A stretch of DNA of 64,000 nt from Chryseobacterium sp. JUb7 (GTDB lineage Bacteria > Bacteroidota > Bacteroidia > Flavobacteriales > Weeksellaceae): the NCBI RefSeq assembly GCF_024806495.1, contig NZ_JANUFF010000001.1:434001-498000 (forward strand), given 5' to 3'. The notes beneath the pieces are model-generated. The model was not told the origin of the DNA. It made no database searches and saw nothing but the letters and a program-made list of their open reading frames with translations. Of the stretch, positions 16,631-33,583 are shown one piece after another. Position numbers and translations under genes: made by a program. Position 1 is the first letter of the stretch, and every line of letters starts with the position of its first letter.

Positions 16631-17221
16631 TTACTTTTTATCTCTCTCCTTCAAAACCTCTTCAATTTCCTCCAAAATAAAACTTTTTGTCTTTAATAAA
16701 ATCAAGAAATGATACAAAAGATCAGCCGCTTCATTTTTAAAAAGATCATCATTGTTGTCTTTGGCCTCAATAACCAGTTCTATAGCTTCCTCTCCTACTT
16801 TTTGAGCAACTTTATTGATCCCTTTTTTATAAAGAGAATAGGTATATGATTCCTCAGTTTTTTCATCAATTCTCTGCGAAACTTTACTTTCCAGTTCATA
16901 TAAAAATCCCTTATTATTCTTATCTCCAAAACAGCTGAAGCTCCCGGTATGGCATACTACATTTTTAGGAACAGCTTTGATTAAAATCGTATCCTGATCA
17001 CAATCTATATCAATACTTTTCACCGTTAAAAAATTCCCGGATTCTTCACCTTTTGTCCAGAGCCGTTTTTTTGAACGACTGAAGAAAGTGACGAGTTTTT
17101 CTTTTTGTGTTTTTTCAAAGGCTTCTGCATTCATATAGCCCAACATCAGTACTTGCAGGGTTCTGTCATCCTGTATAACAACAGGAACTAACCCATCCTT
17201 TTTATCAAAATTAATTTTCAT
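16631..17221 (-). CDS. hisIE: Bifunctional phosphoribosyl-AMP cyclohydrolase / phosphoribosyl-ATP pyrophosphatase
   Basis: Catalyses steps 2 and 3 of histidine synthesis. The N-terminal cyclohydrolase domain (about 1-105) has [10 protein letters not shown], the metal-binding [12 protein letters not shown] and [11 protein letters not shown]. The C-terminal pyrophosphohydrolase (about 110-196) has [15 protein letters not shown] and [13 protein letters not shown], the MazG-like metal helix. 196 residues is normal for the fusion. Last gene of the his operon; its ATG overlaps the hisF stop by 4 nt. Confidence 0.96.
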
Positions 17222-18687: not shown

Positions 18688-19266
18688 TTATAATTTTAAA
18701 AAATTGTTTAATAACAGGCTTCCTATTGTTCCTGATTTTTCGGGATGAAACTGCATCGCATAAAAATTATCTTTCTGCAGAGATGCACTGAATGGCAAGA
18801 TATAATCACAGATAGAAGTTGTATTCTGAGATACTTCACAATAAAAACTATGAACAAAATAAACATCACTTTCTTCCTTTATTCCTGAAAAAACAGATGA
18901 TTTAAAGTTGGAAATAGTGTTCCAGCCCATATGCGGAACCAAATCTTTTGCCGGAAATTTTTTGACATTAATATCAAAAATCCCCATGCCTGCAGTATTT
19001 CCTTCTTCATTATTTTTGCACATCAACTGCATCCCCAGACAAATTCCTAAAACAGGCTGTTTCAAACCCGGAATCAACTGGTCCAGCCCTTTTTCCTTTA
19101 AACTCTTCATCGTCGAAGATGCTTCCCCCACTCCCGGAAAAATCACTTTATCTGCTTTTTTGATGATCTCAAAATCATCTGTTATTATAGATTCCGTATT
19201 CAATCTGTTTAAAGCATTCTGCACGGAATTGACGTTTCCGCCGTTATATTTTATAATTGCAACCAT
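18688..19266 (-). CDS. hisH: Imidazole glycerol phosphate synthase glutaminase subunit HisH
   Basis: Class I glutamine amidotransferase that delivers ammonia to HisF. 192 residues; catalytic Cys in [10 protein letters not shown] (about residue 77), His and Glu in QFHPEKSG near the C-terminus. The stop of hisB and this start are directly adjacent (no spacer). Confidence 0.97.
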
Positions 19267-20361
19267 TTATAAGCTTCCTTTTGTTGAGGGTAAATTAAAA
19301 TTCTGATCGGTCTGACTGACTGCCATTTTTATAGATTTTGCAAAGGCTTTAAAAATCGATTCGATCTTGTGGTGTTCATTTTCTCCTTCAGAAGAAATAT
19401 TTATATTACATCTGGCAGAATCTGTGAAAGATTTAAAGAAATGTTCAAACATTTCAGTAGGTACATCTCCTATTTTTTCTCGTTTAAAGACTGCACTCCA
19501 GACCAGCCATGGACGACCACCAAAATCTATTGCTACCTGAGCCAGGCAGTCATCCATAGGAAGCAGAAAACCATATCTTTCAATTCCTTTTTTCTTGCCT
19601 AGTGCTTTTGAAATAGCTTCTCCCAAAACAATTCCTGTATCTTCGACTGTATGGTGTTCATCAACCTGTAAATCTCCTTTCACTTTAATTTTTAAATCTA
19701 AATTTCCATGTTTAGAAATTTGCTCAAGCATATGGTCAAAAAAGTGTAATCCTGTTGAAATCTCTGCATTTCCGCTACCATCGAGGTTAACCTCAATTTC
19801 AATATCTGTTTCATTTGTTTTTCTTGAAACGGACGCTTTTCTTGGAATTTGTTTTAAATATTGATAAATTTCAGTCCACTTTTCCGTCGTTAATTCAGCA
19901 TCGTTATGTGAAAATTTATTAATAAAAATCGCTTTTGAACCCAAATTTTTTGCAAGCTGAATATCCGTTTCCCGATCTCCAATGACAAAAGAATTTTTAA
20001 GATCATAGTCCCCATAAATGTATTTCCCCATCATTGCCGTCCCAGGTTTTCTGGTAGATAAATTTTCATGTTCAAAACTTTTATCGATCAAAACATCATT
20101 AAAAACAATGCCTTCATTTTCAAATGCCTGCATCATTTTTTCATGAGGTCTAATAAAATCGTCATACGGGAAACTTTCTGTTCCTAAACCATCCTGATTG
20201 GTTACCATAACCAATTCATAATCCAGCTCTTTAACAATTTTTGAGAGATTCTGAAATACTCCGGGATAAAACTCCAGCTTTTCCAGAGAATCTACCTGAA
20301 AATCTGTGGGTGGCTCTATAATTAGGGTTCCGTCCCGATCTATAAATAATACTTTCTTCAT
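19267..20361 (-). CDS. hisB: Bifunctional histidinol-phosphatase / imidazoleglycerol-phosphate dehydratase
   Basis: N-terminal HAD phosphatase domain (about 1-165) with FIDRDGTLI as the nucleophile motif and [10 protein letters not shown] as the acidic motif; C-terminal dehydratase (about 170-364) with [21 protein letters not shown] and ENEHHKIES, the two manganese-binding histidine motifs. It carries out steps 6 and 8 of the pathway. I chose the ATG at 20361 (MKKVLFID) because it fits the HAD fold start; an ATG four codons upstream (20373) is also possible. Confidence 0.95.
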
Positions 20362-20402
20362 AATTTCAATCATTATTTTTCTGTTATTGAAAACTTATTA
20401 GG

Positions 20403-21428
20403 TTACAAAATTCTCAATAGTTGAATCAATTTTATATTTTCTTCTCTGTTTCCAATATTTATACGAATACAATTCGGGATTTGCGGGCTTCTTTTACTGG
20501 TCAGGATTTCTTTTTCCAACAATACCTGATACACTTTTTCAATGTCTGTACATTCAATTAAAAAGAAATTAGCATCACTTGGAAATATTTTCTTGATACA
20601 CTGAATATTTGACATTTCTTTCCTTAACCAATCTTTTTCCGTTAGAATATTTCCTACATTCTGTTCAAAATCAGAAACTTTATCAAGACATTCTACAATA
20701 AGGTCCAGGCTTAAAGAATTTACATTATAAGGGGCTTTCACCGTATTGATAAAACCTATAATTTCTTTAGATGAATAAGCGACTCCCACCCTTGCCCCGG
20801 CTTTTCCCCAAGCTTTTGAAAAGGTTTGCAGGACAATCAGATTAGGATATTTGTTTAATAATTCAAGGCTTGATTTATTTTCAGAAAATTCAATATAAGC
20901 TTCATCAACCACTACAATTCCTTTAAAGTTCTGAATAAAAAACTCAATATCTTCAATACTGTTTCCTGTAGGGTTATTGGGTGAGCACAAAAAGAATATT
21001 TTCAATTCGTTTTCGTTGATTACTTTTAAAAAATCCTCTTTTACAATCTCAAAATTTTCATTTAAATTTAATTTTACTACTTGGTTTTCATTAATTGATG
21101 CATAAAAACCATACATCGCAAATGATGGATTCATCATTAAAACTGAATCTTCCTTTGGTTCACAGAATACTTTAATGATGAGATCAATTAATTCATCGCT
21201 TCCGTTTCCAACAGCAATCTGATCAGGAGATACATTTTTAAATTTCCCCAATTTTGTTTTTAATTTTTTCTGTGTAGAATCTGGATAACGATTATACTCG
21301 CCAAACGGACTTTCATTAGCATCCAGCAAAACAGGAGCATTAAATTCATTGTGGTCTCTGAAGCTGATATAAGGCTGTAGTTCCAATATATTTTTTCGGA
21401 CGAGATCTGTTATAGTAATTGTTGTCAT
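20403..21428 (-). CDS. hisC: Histidinol-phosphate aminotransferase
   Basis: PLP-dependent fold I enzyme converting imidazole acetol phosphate to histidinol phosphate. 341 residues, with LDANESPFGEYNRYPD near residue 35, GNGSDELIDL, CSPNNPTGNS, VVDEAYIEFS and the PLP lysine in QTFSKAWGKAGARVG. Three nt separate it from hisD. Confidence 0.96.
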   Translation of the reverse strand: MTTITITDLVRKNILELQPYISFRDHNEFNAPVLLDANESPFGEYNRYPDSTQKKLKTKLGKFKNVSPDQIAVGNGSDELIDLIIKVFCEPKEDSVLMMNPSFAMYGFYASINENQVVKLNLNENFEIVKEDFLKVINENELKIFFLCSPNNPTGNSIEDIEFFIQNFKGIVVVDEAYIEFSENKSSLELLNKYPNLIVLQTFSKAWGKAGARVGVAYSSKEIIGFINTVKAPYNVNSLSLDLIVECLDKVSDFEQNVGNILTEKDWLRKEMSNIQCIKKIFPSDANFFLIECTDIEKVYQVLLEKEILTSKRSPQIPNCIRINIGNREENIKLIQLLRIL

Positions 21429-21431
21429 TTT

Positions 21432-22709
21432 TTATTGATTTAATCGGATGGTTACGGCATTTTTATGAGCAAATAATCCTTCTGCTTCTGCCATTAATTC
21501 TATTGTTTTTCCTAAATTCTGAAGTCCTGTTTCTGATAAATGCTGAAAGGTTATTTTCTTTACAAAACTGTCGAGTGAAACCCCACTGTAATTTTTTGCA
21601 AAACCGTTGGTCGGAAGAGTGTGATTTGTTCCGCTTGCATAATCCCCTGCACTCTCACAAGAATAATTTCCAAGGAAAACAGATCCTGCATTTTGAATTC
21701 CGGAGGTATATTTTTCAAAATCTCCCAATGCTAAGATCAAATGTTCAGGAGCATATAAATTGCTGAATTCTACAGCTTCTTCAACTGAACCCAAAAGGAT
21801 AAAATGACTGTTTTTCAAAGATTCTTCTGCCAATTCATTTCTGGGAAGCTCTTTAATTTGTTTTTCTATTTCTTCAATCGTTTCAGTAAAAATTCTCTCG
21901 TCTGTTGAAATAAAAATCACCTGGCTGTCACTTCCATGCTCCGCCTGTGACAGCAAATCTGCAGCACAAAATGCAGGAACGGCCTGTTCATCTGCAATAA
22001 TTAATACCTCGCTCGGTCCCGCAGGCATATCAACAGCCACTCCGTAACGCTGGGCATATTCTTTACCAGCCATTACAAACTGATTTCCCGGTCCGAAAAT
22101 TTTATACACATTCGGAATACTTTCTGTACCTAATGCCATAGCGGCAATGGCCTGAGCACCTCCTGTTTTAAATATTTTTGTAACTCCGCAAAGCTGTGCC
22201 GCATAAAGAATTGCAGGATTAATCTCTCCTTTTTTATCCGGAGGAGTACATAATATTATTTCTTTACAACCGGCTAACTGTGCGGGAATAGCCAACATTA
22301 AAACAGTGGAAAATAAAGGAGCAGTACCTCCCGGAACATAAATTCCGACCTTCTCAATCGCCCTGTTTTCTCTCCAGCAGATTACACCGGAAGTTGTCTC
22401 TATTTTTTTATCTTCAGCTTTTTGAGAAGCATGAAATTTTATAATATTCTCCTGAGCTTCTTGAATAGCTTTCTTAAGTTCTTCACTAATTAAATTGGCT
22501 GCCTGATTAACTTCTTTTTCAGAAACCTGAATATTTTCAGTATCAGCATCATCAAATTTTTTATTAAATTCAATGATAGCCTTATCACCGTTTTTCTCAA
22601 CTTCGTTAAAAATGTCAACGATAACCGATGTCAATTCCTCTCTTTTGAGTTCGGGTCTTTTTATTAATTCAGTCCAGATATCTCTTCCGGGATATTTATT
22701 AATTTTCAT
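21432..22709 (-). CDS. hisD: Histidinol dehydrogenase
   Basis: Zinc- and NAD-dependent enzyme that oxidises histidinol to histidine. 425 residues; visible motifs: VGIYVPGGTAPLFSTVLM, GGAQAIAAMALGTES, FGPGNQFVMAGK, DMPAGPSEVLIIAD, LLSQAEHGSDSQ and the C-terminal SAGDYASGTNHTLPT. One nt after hisG. Confidence 0.97.
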   Translation of the reverse strand: MKINKYPGRDIWTELIKRPELKREELTSVIVDIFNEVEKNGDKAIIEFNKKFDDADTENIQVSEKEVNQAANLISEELKKAIQEAQENIIKFHASQKAEDKKIETTSGVICWRENRAIEKVGIYVPGGTAPLFSTVLMLAIPAQLAGCKEIILCTPPDKKGEINPAILYAAQLCGVTKIFKTGGAQAIAAMALGTESIPNVYKIFGPGNQFVMAGKEYAQRYGVAVDMPAGPSEVLIIADEQAVPAFCAADLLSQAEHGSDSQVIFISTDERIFTETIEEIEKQIKELPRNELAEESLKNSHFILLGSVEEAVEFSNLYAPEHLILALGDFEKYTSGIQNAGSVFLGNYSCESAGDYASGTNHTLPTNGFAKNYSGVSLDSFVKKITFQHLSETGLQNLGKTIELMAEAEGLFAHKNAVTIRLNQ

Positions 22710-22710
22710 A

Positions 22711-23568
22711 TTATATTACCATTTTATCAATTGGAATAATCAGGATATCCTGAGCACCTTTCTCCTTAAGTTCATCAATAACTTCCCAGAATCTTTCTTC
22801 ATCAATTACAGAATGAATACTGCTCCATCCTTCCTGAGCCAGCGGAATGACGGTCGGACTTTTAAGAACAGGCAGTGTTTTTGAAATGATCTCAATTTTA
22901 TCATTGGGAACATTCATCAGGATATATTTTGAATTTTTCGCTTTTAAAACAGCTTGTATCCTGAAAAGAAATTTTGAAAGGATTTCAGATTTTTCCTGAT
23001 TCAGACTCGAAGTTTTTGCAAGAACGGCTTCAGATTTTAGTAAAGTAACCGTCTCTCTCAAGCCATTTTTGAACAAGGTACTTCCTGAGCTTACAATATC
23101 ACAGATTCCGTCTGCCAGCCCTATATTGGGAGCGATTTCCACAGAACCTGAAATAATATGAATATCTGCTGAGACCTTATTTTGCTGAAGGAAATTTTTA
23201 AGAGTATTCGGATAAGATGTTGCAATTTTTTTACCTTCAAAATACTGAATATCATCTGTTTCAATTTCTTTCGGAATTGCCAGGGAAACCCGACATTTTG
23301 AGAATCCCAGATTCTGAATAATTTCAATATTTTTTTGTTTTTCGACTAAAAGATTCTCACCTACGATCGCGATATCTACCACGCCGTCTTCCAGATATTG
23401 AGGGATATCAGAGTTCCGTAAATACATGATTTCCATAGGGAAATTATCGACAGAAACTTTAAGCTGGTCTTTTCCGTTGTTGATGAAAATTCCGCAGTCT
23501 TTAAGAAGCTGGAGAGATTCTTCATAGAGCCTTCCGCTTTTTTGTATTGCTATTTTTAATTTACTCAT
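22711..23568 (-). CDS. hisG: ATP phosphoribosyltransferase (long form)
   Basis: First enzyme of histidine synthesis: ATP plus PRPP to phosphoribosyl-ATP. 285 residues from ATG at 23568 (MSKLKIAIQKSGRL); eight extra codons are open upstream but do not fit the family. It has the periplasmic-binding-like catalytic domain (GRLYEESLQLL, VDIAIVGENLL, GLADGICDIVSSGSTL) and the C-terminal allosteric domain (about 210-285, ending EKGAQDILIIPIDKMV), so it should be feedback-inhibited by histidine and need no HisZ. First structural gene of the his operon. Confidence 0.96.
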   Translation of the reverse strand: MSKLKIAIQKSGRLYEESLQLLKDCGIFINNGKDQLKVSVDNFPMEIMYLRNSDIPQYLEDGVVDIAIVGENLLVEKQKNIEIIQNLGFSKCRVSLAIPKEIETDDIQYFEGKKIATSYPNTLKNFLQQNKVSADIHIISGSVEIAPNIGLADGICDIVSSGSTLFKNGLRETVTLLKSEAVLAKTSSLNQEKSEILSKFLFRIQAVLKAKNSKYILMNVPNDKIEIISKTLPVLKSPTVIPLAQEGWSSIHSVIDEERFWEVIDELKEKGAQDILIIPIDKMVI

Positions 23569-23640
23569 TATACTTCTGTTGAGTCTGAGCAAATAAAAAA
23601 TGGTTGAATTGAAAAAATTTCCCGGGATAAATTTAGAAAC

Positions 23641-23670
23641 AAAAAAACCGTCTATTTACTCAGACGGTTT
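23641..23670 (-). terminator. His operon attenuator terminator
   Basis: On the minus strand: AAACCGTCT, an 8-nt loop, AGACGGTTT, then a run of seven T. It lies between the His-rich leader peptide and hisG, so it is a regulatory (attenuator) terminator. The first arm CCGTCT can alternatively pair with AGACGG at the leader stop codon (plus positions 23712-23717). Confidence 0.85.
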
Positions 23671-23715
23671 TTAATTATTTTGATTTTTAACATAGTCATA
23701 TATCAACAATTCCGT

Positions 23716-23766
23716 CTAGCAGAGATGATGATAATAATGATGTACTGTTAAAAAATCCGGTTTCAT
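23716..23766 (-). CDS. Histidine operon leader peptide
   Basis: 16-residue ORF MKPDFLTVHHYYHHLC with four His codons in a six-residue stretch, ending in TAG at 23716-23718. It lies directly upstream of a terminator hairpin and hisG. Stalling at the His codons when charged His-tRNA is scarce would free AGACGG (overlapping the stop codon) to pair with CCGTCT and so prevent the terminator. This is the classical attenuation layout; seen in sequence, function inferred. Confidence 0.85.
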   Translation of the reverse strand: MKPDFLTVHHYYHHLC

Positions 23767-23784
23767 TGTTGAAATTTTGAATGA

Positions 23785-23817
23785 CAAAGGTATGGTTTTA
23801 TTTTTTAACCCTGCAAA
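23785..23817 (-). promoter_or_regulatory. Promoter of the his operon
   Basis: Minus strand: TTTG (23814-23817), 21-nt spacer, TACCTTTG (23785-23792). This is a full -33/-7 match and places the transcript start just upstream of the leader peptide ATG. Confidence 0.7.
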
Positions 23818-23947
23818 TTTAATTTCGCCAAAATTGATTATTGATGATTTTAAAGAAAAATATTAATAATAAATAAATTATAAACTAATATATTTTTAAA
23901 TTTAATATATATTGATGTAAAATTTTAATTTAATGATTTTGATTTAA

Positions 23948-23955
23948 TATATTTG
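23948..23955 (+). promoter_or_regulatory. Candidate -7 element for the fibre-like protein gene
   Basis: TATATTTG matches TAnnTTTG; it would give a leader of about 160 nt before the ATG at 24118. No -33 box at the right distance. Confidence 0.35.
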
Positions 23956-24117
23956 CGCCCGTAAATATTTTTTGAATATAATCAAAAAGCTTTTCAATAA
24001 AGCGATTTCTGACACATGGCTGATTGTAATTAAATTCCAAATTATATTTAAAAAACAACACCTATCACTCATTTCCGATTTTCAATAAATTAATTGTATC
24101 ATAATAAACTAAAATTA

Positions 24118-24945
24118 ATGAAAAAACATTTAGTAACATTAATGGGTCTGTTGAGTTCATTTGCGTTCAGCCAGGTGGGAATTAATACTTCAAACCCACA
24201 AACGACTTTTCATATAGACGGAATGAAAGATAACCCTGCAACAGGAAATCCAAGTCAGGTACAACAGCTAAATGATGTCGCTGTTGATCTGAATGGAAAT
24301 GTAGGAATAGGAACCACTACTCCAACTGCCAAACTGGAAATTAACTCTACCACAGGAAATGCTTTAAAAATTACAGATACTACTCAAGGTTTAGGAAAAG
24401 TTTTAACCTCAGACTCTAATGGAAATGCCAGATGGTCGGCTCCGGGAACGAGTCTTGCTAAATTAGCCATAATTCCCACTGCAGAGCAAACAGTAACCAC
24501 AATTGATGACCCTCAAATCACCGGAGACCAAAGGATTGCCTATTCAGGAGCTTATATTACTTTAACTCCCGGAAAATATCAGGTCAATTTCACAATGTGG
24601 TGTGCGCCTACCGGCACCAATGCATCCAGCAGTAATGTAAATGATGGTTTTGCATCGGTCTTTTTATCAACTTCCGCTACCAGTAATATAGCTCCTACCT
24701 ATCTTTCTCCTATAAAATCGATTATTATTCCCCGTTTATACAATAGTGCTGCGGCAAGCCCGGATTATTACGGGTCCGGAAATATTGCGGTAAATATTAC
24801 AGCTCCAACGACTTTGTATCTGTGGGTTTATATGTCAAACGGTAACTGGACAAGTACCGCCACAAGAAATATGAGATTCAGATTTGATGCAGGAAGTTAC
24901 GGACCATACGTTCAAATGTATGCTGTTCCTTTTGAAGTTGAATAG
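24118..24945 (+). CDS. Secreted fibre/collar-like protein, unknown function
   Basis: 275 residues from ATG at 24118 (MKKHLVTLMGLLSSFAFSQ), a clear signal peptide ending at FSQ. The mature N-terminus VGINTSNPQTTFHIDG and a second copy VGIGTTTPTAKLEI near residue 62 are the short repeats common in flavobacterial surface proteins and reminiscent of phage tail-fibre beta segments. The C-terminal 150 residues form a probable beta-rich domain (ITLTPGKYQVNFTMW ...). No type IX sorting domain is obvious. An earlier in-frame TTG was rejected because it would disrupt the signal peptide. Confidence 0.75.
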   Translation: MKKHLVTLMGLLSSFAFSQVGINTSNPQTTFHIDGMKDNPATGNPSQVQQLNDVAVDLNGNVGIGTTTPTAKLEINSTTGNALKITDTTQGLGKVLTSDSNGNARWSAPGTSLAKLAIIPTAEQTVTTIDDPQITGDQRIAYSGAYITLTPGKYQVNFTMWCAPTGTNASSSNVNDGFASVFLSTSATSNIAPTYLSPIKSIIIPRLYNSAAASPDYYGSGNIAVNITAPTTLYLWVYMSNGNWTSTATRNMRFRFDAGSYGPYVQMYAVPFEVE

Positions 24946-33506: not shown

Positions 33507-33583
33507 GGGGGATTAGCTCATCTGGCTAGAGCGTTAGACTGGCAGTCTAAAGGTGACGGGTTCGATCCCCGTATCCTCCACCA
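33507..33583 (+). tRNA. tRNA-Ala (anticodon GGC)
   Basis: Full cloverleaf: acceptor GGGGGAT / ATCCTCC with the alanine identity pair G3-U70, D arm GCTC...GAGC, anticodon stem TTAGA/TCTAA with loop CTGGCAG (anticodon GGC), T arm ACGGG/CCCGT with TTCGATC loop, discriminator A and encoded CCA. A hairpin terminator follows. Confidence 0.95.

Follow-up and report, generated by a model that had tools for sequence, protein, structure and literature searches.

Ahead of the histidine biosynthesis operon of Chryseobacterium sp. JUb7 lies a region (23641-23817, minus strand) in which the initial annotation had seen a complete transcription attenuator for histidine synthesis, and the question is whether the operon is indeed controlled by a ribosome that reads a leader peptide. 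The operon and its candidate attenuator share the minus strand of one contig in the 4.95-Mb genome, within the 64,000-nt stretch of DNA analysed here (the window). The gene order is hisG, hisD, hisC, bifunctional hisB and hisH, with each product scoring above the NCBIfam curated cut-off of at least one model, and three more minus-strand ORFs follow downstream of hisH, reaching position 16631. The upstream neighbour (ORF 24094-24945) is on the opposite strand to the his operon. HisG of the window is up to 93% identical to HisG of named Chryseobacterium species, and 94% identical to that of a Weeksellaceae MAG. At gathering score, Rfam matches the window only once, at a tRNA gene (33507-33580, plus strand).

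The features of the leader region are listed in Table 1. All parts of the promoter that had been annotated as TTTG-N21-TACCTTTG are present, and the spacer is exactly 21 nt. The −7 element TACCTTTG is a promoter box of the Bacteroidota type, and a gap of 18 nt separates it from the ATG of the leader. Read on the minus strand, the leader MKPDFLTVHHYYHHLC has the four annotated His codons, all of them CAT, and is thus a short ORF rich in codons for the end product of the operon. Its stop codon (TAG, 23718-23716) does overlap the first AGACGG (23717-23712). The three segments that the initial annotation called identical are not all so: only arms 2 and 4 are identical, and arm 3 is their complement. 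An intrinsic terminator is found between the leader and the first gene, where the hairpin 23672-23643 is a 12-pair match (−13.1 kcal/mol). The antiterminator of the window is longer than 6 bp (−10.2 kcal/mol), and the fold of the leader RNA is better than those of 200/200 shuffled sequences (z −4.26).

Table 1. Features of the his leader region and of the structural genes that follow it, in window coordinates.
Feature	Position	Strand	Basis or remark
Promoter −33 element TTTG	23814..23817	−	sequence read; TTG conservation in relatives
Promoter −7 element TACCTTTG	23785..23792	−	21-nt spacer exactly to TTTG
Leader ORF MKPDFLTVHHYYHHLC	23716..23766	−	ATG at 23766, stop TAG at 23718-23716
Protector helix P1, 5′ strand GATTTTTTAACA	23746..23757	−	predicted; leader codons 4-7
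His codons 1-2 (CAT CAT)	23737..23742	−	CAT at both positions in 73/73 genus leaders
His codons 3-4 (CAT CAT)	23725..23730	−	first bases 13 and 10 nt ahead of arm 2
Arm 1 TCTG	23720..23723	−	predicted pairing with CGGA of arm 2 in ribosome-free RNA
Arm 2 AGACGG	23712..23717	−	antiterminator 5′ strand; first two bases are the last two of stop TAG
Protector helix P1, 3′ strand TGTTAAAAATC	23682..23692	−	predicted, in linker; compensatory haplotypes
Arm 3 CCGTCT	23662..23667	−	common to antiterminator and terminator
Arm 4 AGACGG	23648..23653	−	terminator 3′ strand
Intrinsic terminator hairpin AAAAACCGTCTGAGTAAATAGACGGTTTTT with U-tract	23641..23672	−	terminator scan and folding
hisG, first structural gene	22711..23568	−	TIGR00070 and TIGR03455 over cut-off; ATG at 23568
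hisD, hisC, bifunctional hisB, hisH	18688..22709	−	curated models

The check named in the initial annotation was to look upstream of hisG in relatives for the His codons and for co-varying arms, and both were found. Three samples were used. The close relatives comprise 81 regions (the window and 80 loci, mostly of named Chryseobacterium; the named sample), and for the order 60 of the 128 HisG-positive genomes in the sample were fetched, including 5/39 of family f15. The class sample has 78 of 87 HisG-positive regions, the omitted ones being G207 (a two-piece match) and eight genomes of the order sample, among them that of the window (G000) and another genus member (G004). A leader, defined as an ATG ORF upstream of hisG with at least three His in eight residues, was found in 80/81 close relatives, in 55/60 regions of the order (from 8 families) and in 65/78 of the class (from 24 families), against 0, 2 and 3 in the antisense control and means of 0.6, 1.0 and 1.6 after dinucleotide shuffling. 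With at least four His, the counts are 78, 47 and 56 (antisense 0, 0 and 0; shuffle means 0.4, 0 and 0.2). These controls exclude a chance ORF as the source of the leader. The single miss among the close relatives is a region with only 99 nt upstream (L039). Between the first and last His, the numbers of CAT, CAC and Gln codons are 343, 7 and 1 in the close relatives, 235, 26 and 1 in the order, and 235, 82 and 6 in the class.

The promoter is conserved with the leader. The 46 nt ahead of the leader contain a −7 box (TANN(N)TTTG) in 79/80 named, 44/55 order and 47/65 class loci, compared to 5, 1 and 2 in the 46 nt past the leader stop, and 3, 7 and 9 when those upstream 46 nt are reverse-complemented. 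TTG is present 14-27 nt upstream of the box in 73/80, 26/55 and 34/65 loci, respectively.

The His run of the window is broken by Tyr codons. Among 73 genus leaders, 72 have Tyr at the third position of the cluster (TAT 64, TAC 8; 23734-23736 in the window), and the fourth position is split between His (40) and Tyr (33); Tyr in the cluster is a trait of the genus. TAT is one step from CAT, yet the third-position Tyr is fixed in the genus, as if under constraint. The use of both TAT and TAC at this position looks like selection on the amino acid and would suit a leader (HHYYHH) that additionally senses tyrosine, giving dual His/Tyr control. Such control is improbable, considering that the fourth position alternates between Tyr and His, and that the residues within the cluster in other families are mostly Phe, Leu, Ser, Ile or Val.

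The pairings on which a histidine-responsive attenuator would depend were examined in loci with both a leader and a terminator. The arm 2:arm 3 duplex is better than with shuffled linkers at p≤0.05 in 79/80 named, 41/55 order and 27/52 class loci. With one locus per family (29 families), 15 pass 0.05 and the combined Fisher P is 1.9e-14; arm 2 has p>0.1 in 27/107 order and class loci, such as those of f13, f23, f58 and f59. Where p≤0.1 (160 loci), the median distance from the first His codon to the start of arm 2 is 25 nt, the search having started 13 nt past that codon, which places arm 2 farther downstream by construction. Its closeness to the stop codon was not imposed by the search design: in 160/160 of these loci arm 2 begins at most 12 nt beyond the first base of the stop codon, near enough to be covered, by expectation, by a ribosome that has halted there.

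The annotated ability of CCGTCT to pair with either AGACGG is borne out by folding and by co-variation with both arms, the antiterminator thereby excluding the terminator. Arm 3 has a CGYYT core in 135 loci, and its second variable base is matched with arm 2 as C-G in 100, T-A in 23 and T-G in 7, with 5 unpaired, and with arm 4 as C-G in 105, T-A in 28 and T-G in 2. The partners were taken from folding, which allows standard pairs only; unpaired cells are few (for the match with arm 2, 5/105 of the loci that have C at position 5). Per-family Fisher P values for this base are 2.1e-4 (arm 2) and 2.0e-6 (arm 4). The first variable base is weaker, with a per-family P of 0.0025 for arm 4 and no significance per family for arm 2 (0.076). 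RNAalifold, applied to 42 sequences, found the terminator alone, with 4/10 pairs changed on both sides.

Fold computation also predicts a protector, which would keep the antiterminator from forming as long as no ribosome is stalled on the leader. The leader of the window up to arm 3 gives a single predicted fold (−17.2 kcal/mol): codons 4-7 of the leader (GATTTTTTAACA) are paired to the linker (TGTTAAAAATC), and TCTG to CGGA of arm 2. The computed probability of arm 2:arm 3 pairing in the window is 0.0002 when the RNA is free of ribosomes and 0.73 when stalled, the stalled state being modelled by masking the leader as far as 13 nt downstream of the first base of His codon 1. For 31 representatives, chosen among loci with p≤0.1 for arm 2 (the window, seven distant loci of the named sample and 23 loci from as many families), the medians are 0.002 with the free leader, 0.67 with a shuffled leader and 0.69 when stalled. 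Blocking by the free leader brings the pairing below that of the shuffles at p≤0.05 in 23/31. There is no blocking by the free leader in L162 (f35; 0.73) and L173 (f46; 0.79), and the stalled values are low in L106 and L155 (0.28 and 0.33). According to these models, the leader sequence is tuned to block the antiterminator in most lineages, a block that would be lifted by a ribosome positioned at the His codons.

The strands of helix P1 change together within the genus. Leaders with TTAGCA have TGCT(A/G)A in the linker (24/24), those with TCAACA have TGTTGA (5/5), and 36 of the 73 leaders have TTAACA with TGTT(A/G)A. The exceptions are six leaders without a motif found by the search, one (TTCACA) that breaks a pair and one with a misassigned start. 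These compensatory changes may represent few evolutionary events. Taken alone, P1 reaches p≤0.05 in 38/80 named, 31/53 order and 14/45 class loci; its value in the window is 0.055.

Region 23641-23817 is very probably a ribosome-mediated transcription attenuator of the his operon, and the initial proposal gains support from the anatomy of the region, the conservation of the leader, the co-variation of the arms and the predicted folds, as well as from the reach of the element in the order and from the Trp and Ile/Val leaders of the source genome. Transcription would start just downstream of 23785, and a ribosome would begin the leader peptide. With ample His-tRNA, the ribosome would reach the stop codon and cover arm 2, leaving arms 3 and 4 to pair as the terminator, and the operon would be off. 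If no ribosome is present, the 5′ codons of the leader and arm 1 would fold with the linker and arm 2 as the protector; the terminator would again form and the operon would be off. When His-tRNA is scarce, the ribosome would stall on the His codons, opening the protector and freeing arm 2, which would then pair with arm 3 ahead of the synthesis of arm 4, and the resulting antiterminator would leave the operon on. In the full-length RNA of the window with a stalled ribosome, the terminator is still preferred at equilibrium (0.92), so the switch must be kinetic, decided by the order of transcription.

It is very unlikely that the hairpin is instead a constitutive terminator of another transcript, or part of an sRNA, with a His-rich ORF ahead of it by chance. 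The upstream neighbour does run on the other strand, and the hairpin passes the terminator scan on the plus strand too, but promoter box and leader keep their order across relatives, the controls seldom contain a leader of this type, and a terminator of this sort gives no reason for the pairing of arm 2 or for the protector. That the leader peptide acts mainly on hisG translation or through Rho is just as hard to credit, even with a His leader and no intrinsic terminator by scan at 7/7 loci of family f49, in view of the 12-pair hairpin with a U-tract in the window and the co-variation of arm 3 with arm 2 in the 135 loci sharing the arm 3 core.

The distribution of the attenuator was followed with a covariance model built from 42 sequences of 45 rows prepared, three being dropped for an internal ATG taken as the start, or for divergence (L091, L093 and L097). 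Matches at E<1e-6 were found in 81/196 genomes of the order sample, of which at least 21 had themselves supplied rows to the model, and all of them lay on the strand of hisG, 16-84 nt ahead of the gene. They account for 81/89 HisG-bearing order genomes outside f15, and are absent from the 39 f15 genomes (0/39) and from order genomes without HisG (0/68).

Genomes of f15 are 0.3-0.6 Mb in size, and we take them for nutritional endosymbionts, Blattabacterium-like. None of the five f15 regions fetched (L144-L148) has a His leader; three of them retain a short hairpin resembling AAAAGCTTAC/GTAAGCTTTT about 50 nt before hisG. The leader is also absent in 5/5 regions of class family f52, where hisG starts, by eye, at the end of the upstream reading frame.

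Beyond the class, the survey covered 43 of 95 HisG-positive genomes, and an ATG leader with at least four His was seen in 12/43 regions, counted without a shuffle or antisense control. Eleven of these belong to families f79, f84, f86 and f87, with HisG 41-52% identical to that of the window, and no such leader was found outside the class in families with HisG 27-36% identical. The link between leader and HisG type is loose because f81 (3/3 regions), f77 (2/2) and f88 (1/1) have no such leader despite HisG identities of 40-55%.

Some relatives keep the leader and have no terminator detected by the scan. In f49 the His leader is kept at 7/7 loci (L224, L225, L226, L228, L230, L231 and L233), none of which shows an intrinsic terminator before hisG by scan, and the read-out may be different there. 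Six further loci (L200, L204, L206, L208, L216 and L222) have a leader and no terminator by scan. The leaders of L194 and L204 (f16) and of L206 and L208 (f28) end in HHSS, with the stop codon inside a TTCCTC...GAGGAA-like hairpin that in 3/4 is without a T-run after it. We suggest, tentatively, that the His leader before hisG could be ancestral in much of Bacteroidota, inherited with this HisG type, lost in reduced endosymbiont-like genomes, and remodelled in f49 and in the HHSS group of f16/f28 to terminator-less forms that read stalling otherwise. Such terminator-less relatives are places to seek other read-outs of a stalled ribosome.

The source genome carries other leaders. A Trp leader, MFTTSNNNWWWLSNSSSGLKLLSCC (WWW), lies about 232 nt before a trpE match (G000:C11, L237), and is followed by a strong hairpin and a T-run; the trpE-like gene after it scores below the curated cut-off of its family. 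Judged by its sequence, this region is a putative second attenuator of the same kind in the genome. An Ile/Val leader, MHTRFNNIITVIIIIIIGFR (IITVIIIIII), with a terminator, is found at G000:C1:553295-553431 (minus strand; L246 and L236), before an ORF that precedes ilvD and is taken for ilvE. This region is a weak second match of the his covariance model in the source genome. A second his-regulated gene per genome was sought by inspecting seven weak places among the matches listed; six have a hairpin and T-run and no His leader, and the seventh is the Ile/Val leader before ilvE, not a his element. Other genomic copies of the terminator motif CCGTCTGAGTAAA amount to seven sites with one mismatch (two in the reversed control), none with a His leader and such a gene arrangement.

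The Rfam model of the enterobacterial his leader (His_leader, RF00514) does not reach its gathering score anywhere in the window, and a scan of 23500-23950 at E≤5 gave no hit to it either. In the latter interval, Phe_leader reaches 25.1 bits and Thr_leader 19.4 bits, both under the gathering score of 55. No match of the T-box covariance model was found in the window (gathering score) or in 23500-23950. Among nine relatives scanned, RF00514 is seen below threshold in one, of the same order, where it falls on the leader region (L116:308-412; 33.9 bits against a gathering score of 49). The leader, arms and protector given here describe an element for a phylum in which the Rfam model stayed below threshold in these scans.

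Comparative genomics by Vitreschak in 2004 and Lopatovskaya in 2010 reportedly predicted amino-acid attenuators of the same kind, and the abstract of the former is said to mention Bacteroidetes/Chlorobi; these studies may already predict the his element in Bacteroidota. For such a his attenuator in this phylum, nothing closer was found in the open-access literature than a transcriptome of Flavobacterium psychrophilum (PMC9723704), the available sections of which describe strong clues that amino-acid operons are preceded by leader-peptide attenuators, and a structured 5′ element before hisG, also in other Flavobacteriaceae genera, without a Rfam hit. The gene is the same and the organism related; for hisG, those sections contain neither a leader sequence nor arms nor a mechanism. 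The switch belongs to a known kind, because the sections available already report attenuation and a hisG element (PMC9723704); the extent of conservation and the predicted protector are the additions made here. In the part available of a treatment of his genes in Bacteroidota and sister phyla, attenuation is mentioned once, for enterobacteria (PMC8305728). A His leader peptide is described before hisZ and hisS* in bacilli, in the available text of PMC2965389, and is alike in placing His codons on his-related genes outside Proteobacteria and unlike in phylum and in the genes concerned.

The conservation of a conventional attenuator implies that coupling of transcription and translation works in flavobacteria, which have their own promoter type and, according to the sections available of PMC9723704, are without Shine-Dalgarno sequences. 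The flavobacterial attenuator is a simple handle for testing this coupling. Ribosome-mediated attenuation needs transcription and translation to be tightly coupled, and leader-peptide attenuation as a kind of switch has been known for decades. Its classical his form is hisL of enterobacteria. As in hisL, a leader with His codons precedes hisG, the pairings are mutually exclusive and an intrinsic terminator follows. The leader region described here differs from hisL in that its His run is short and broken by Tyr, arm 2 sits at the stop codon, and the promoter is of the Bacteroidota type.
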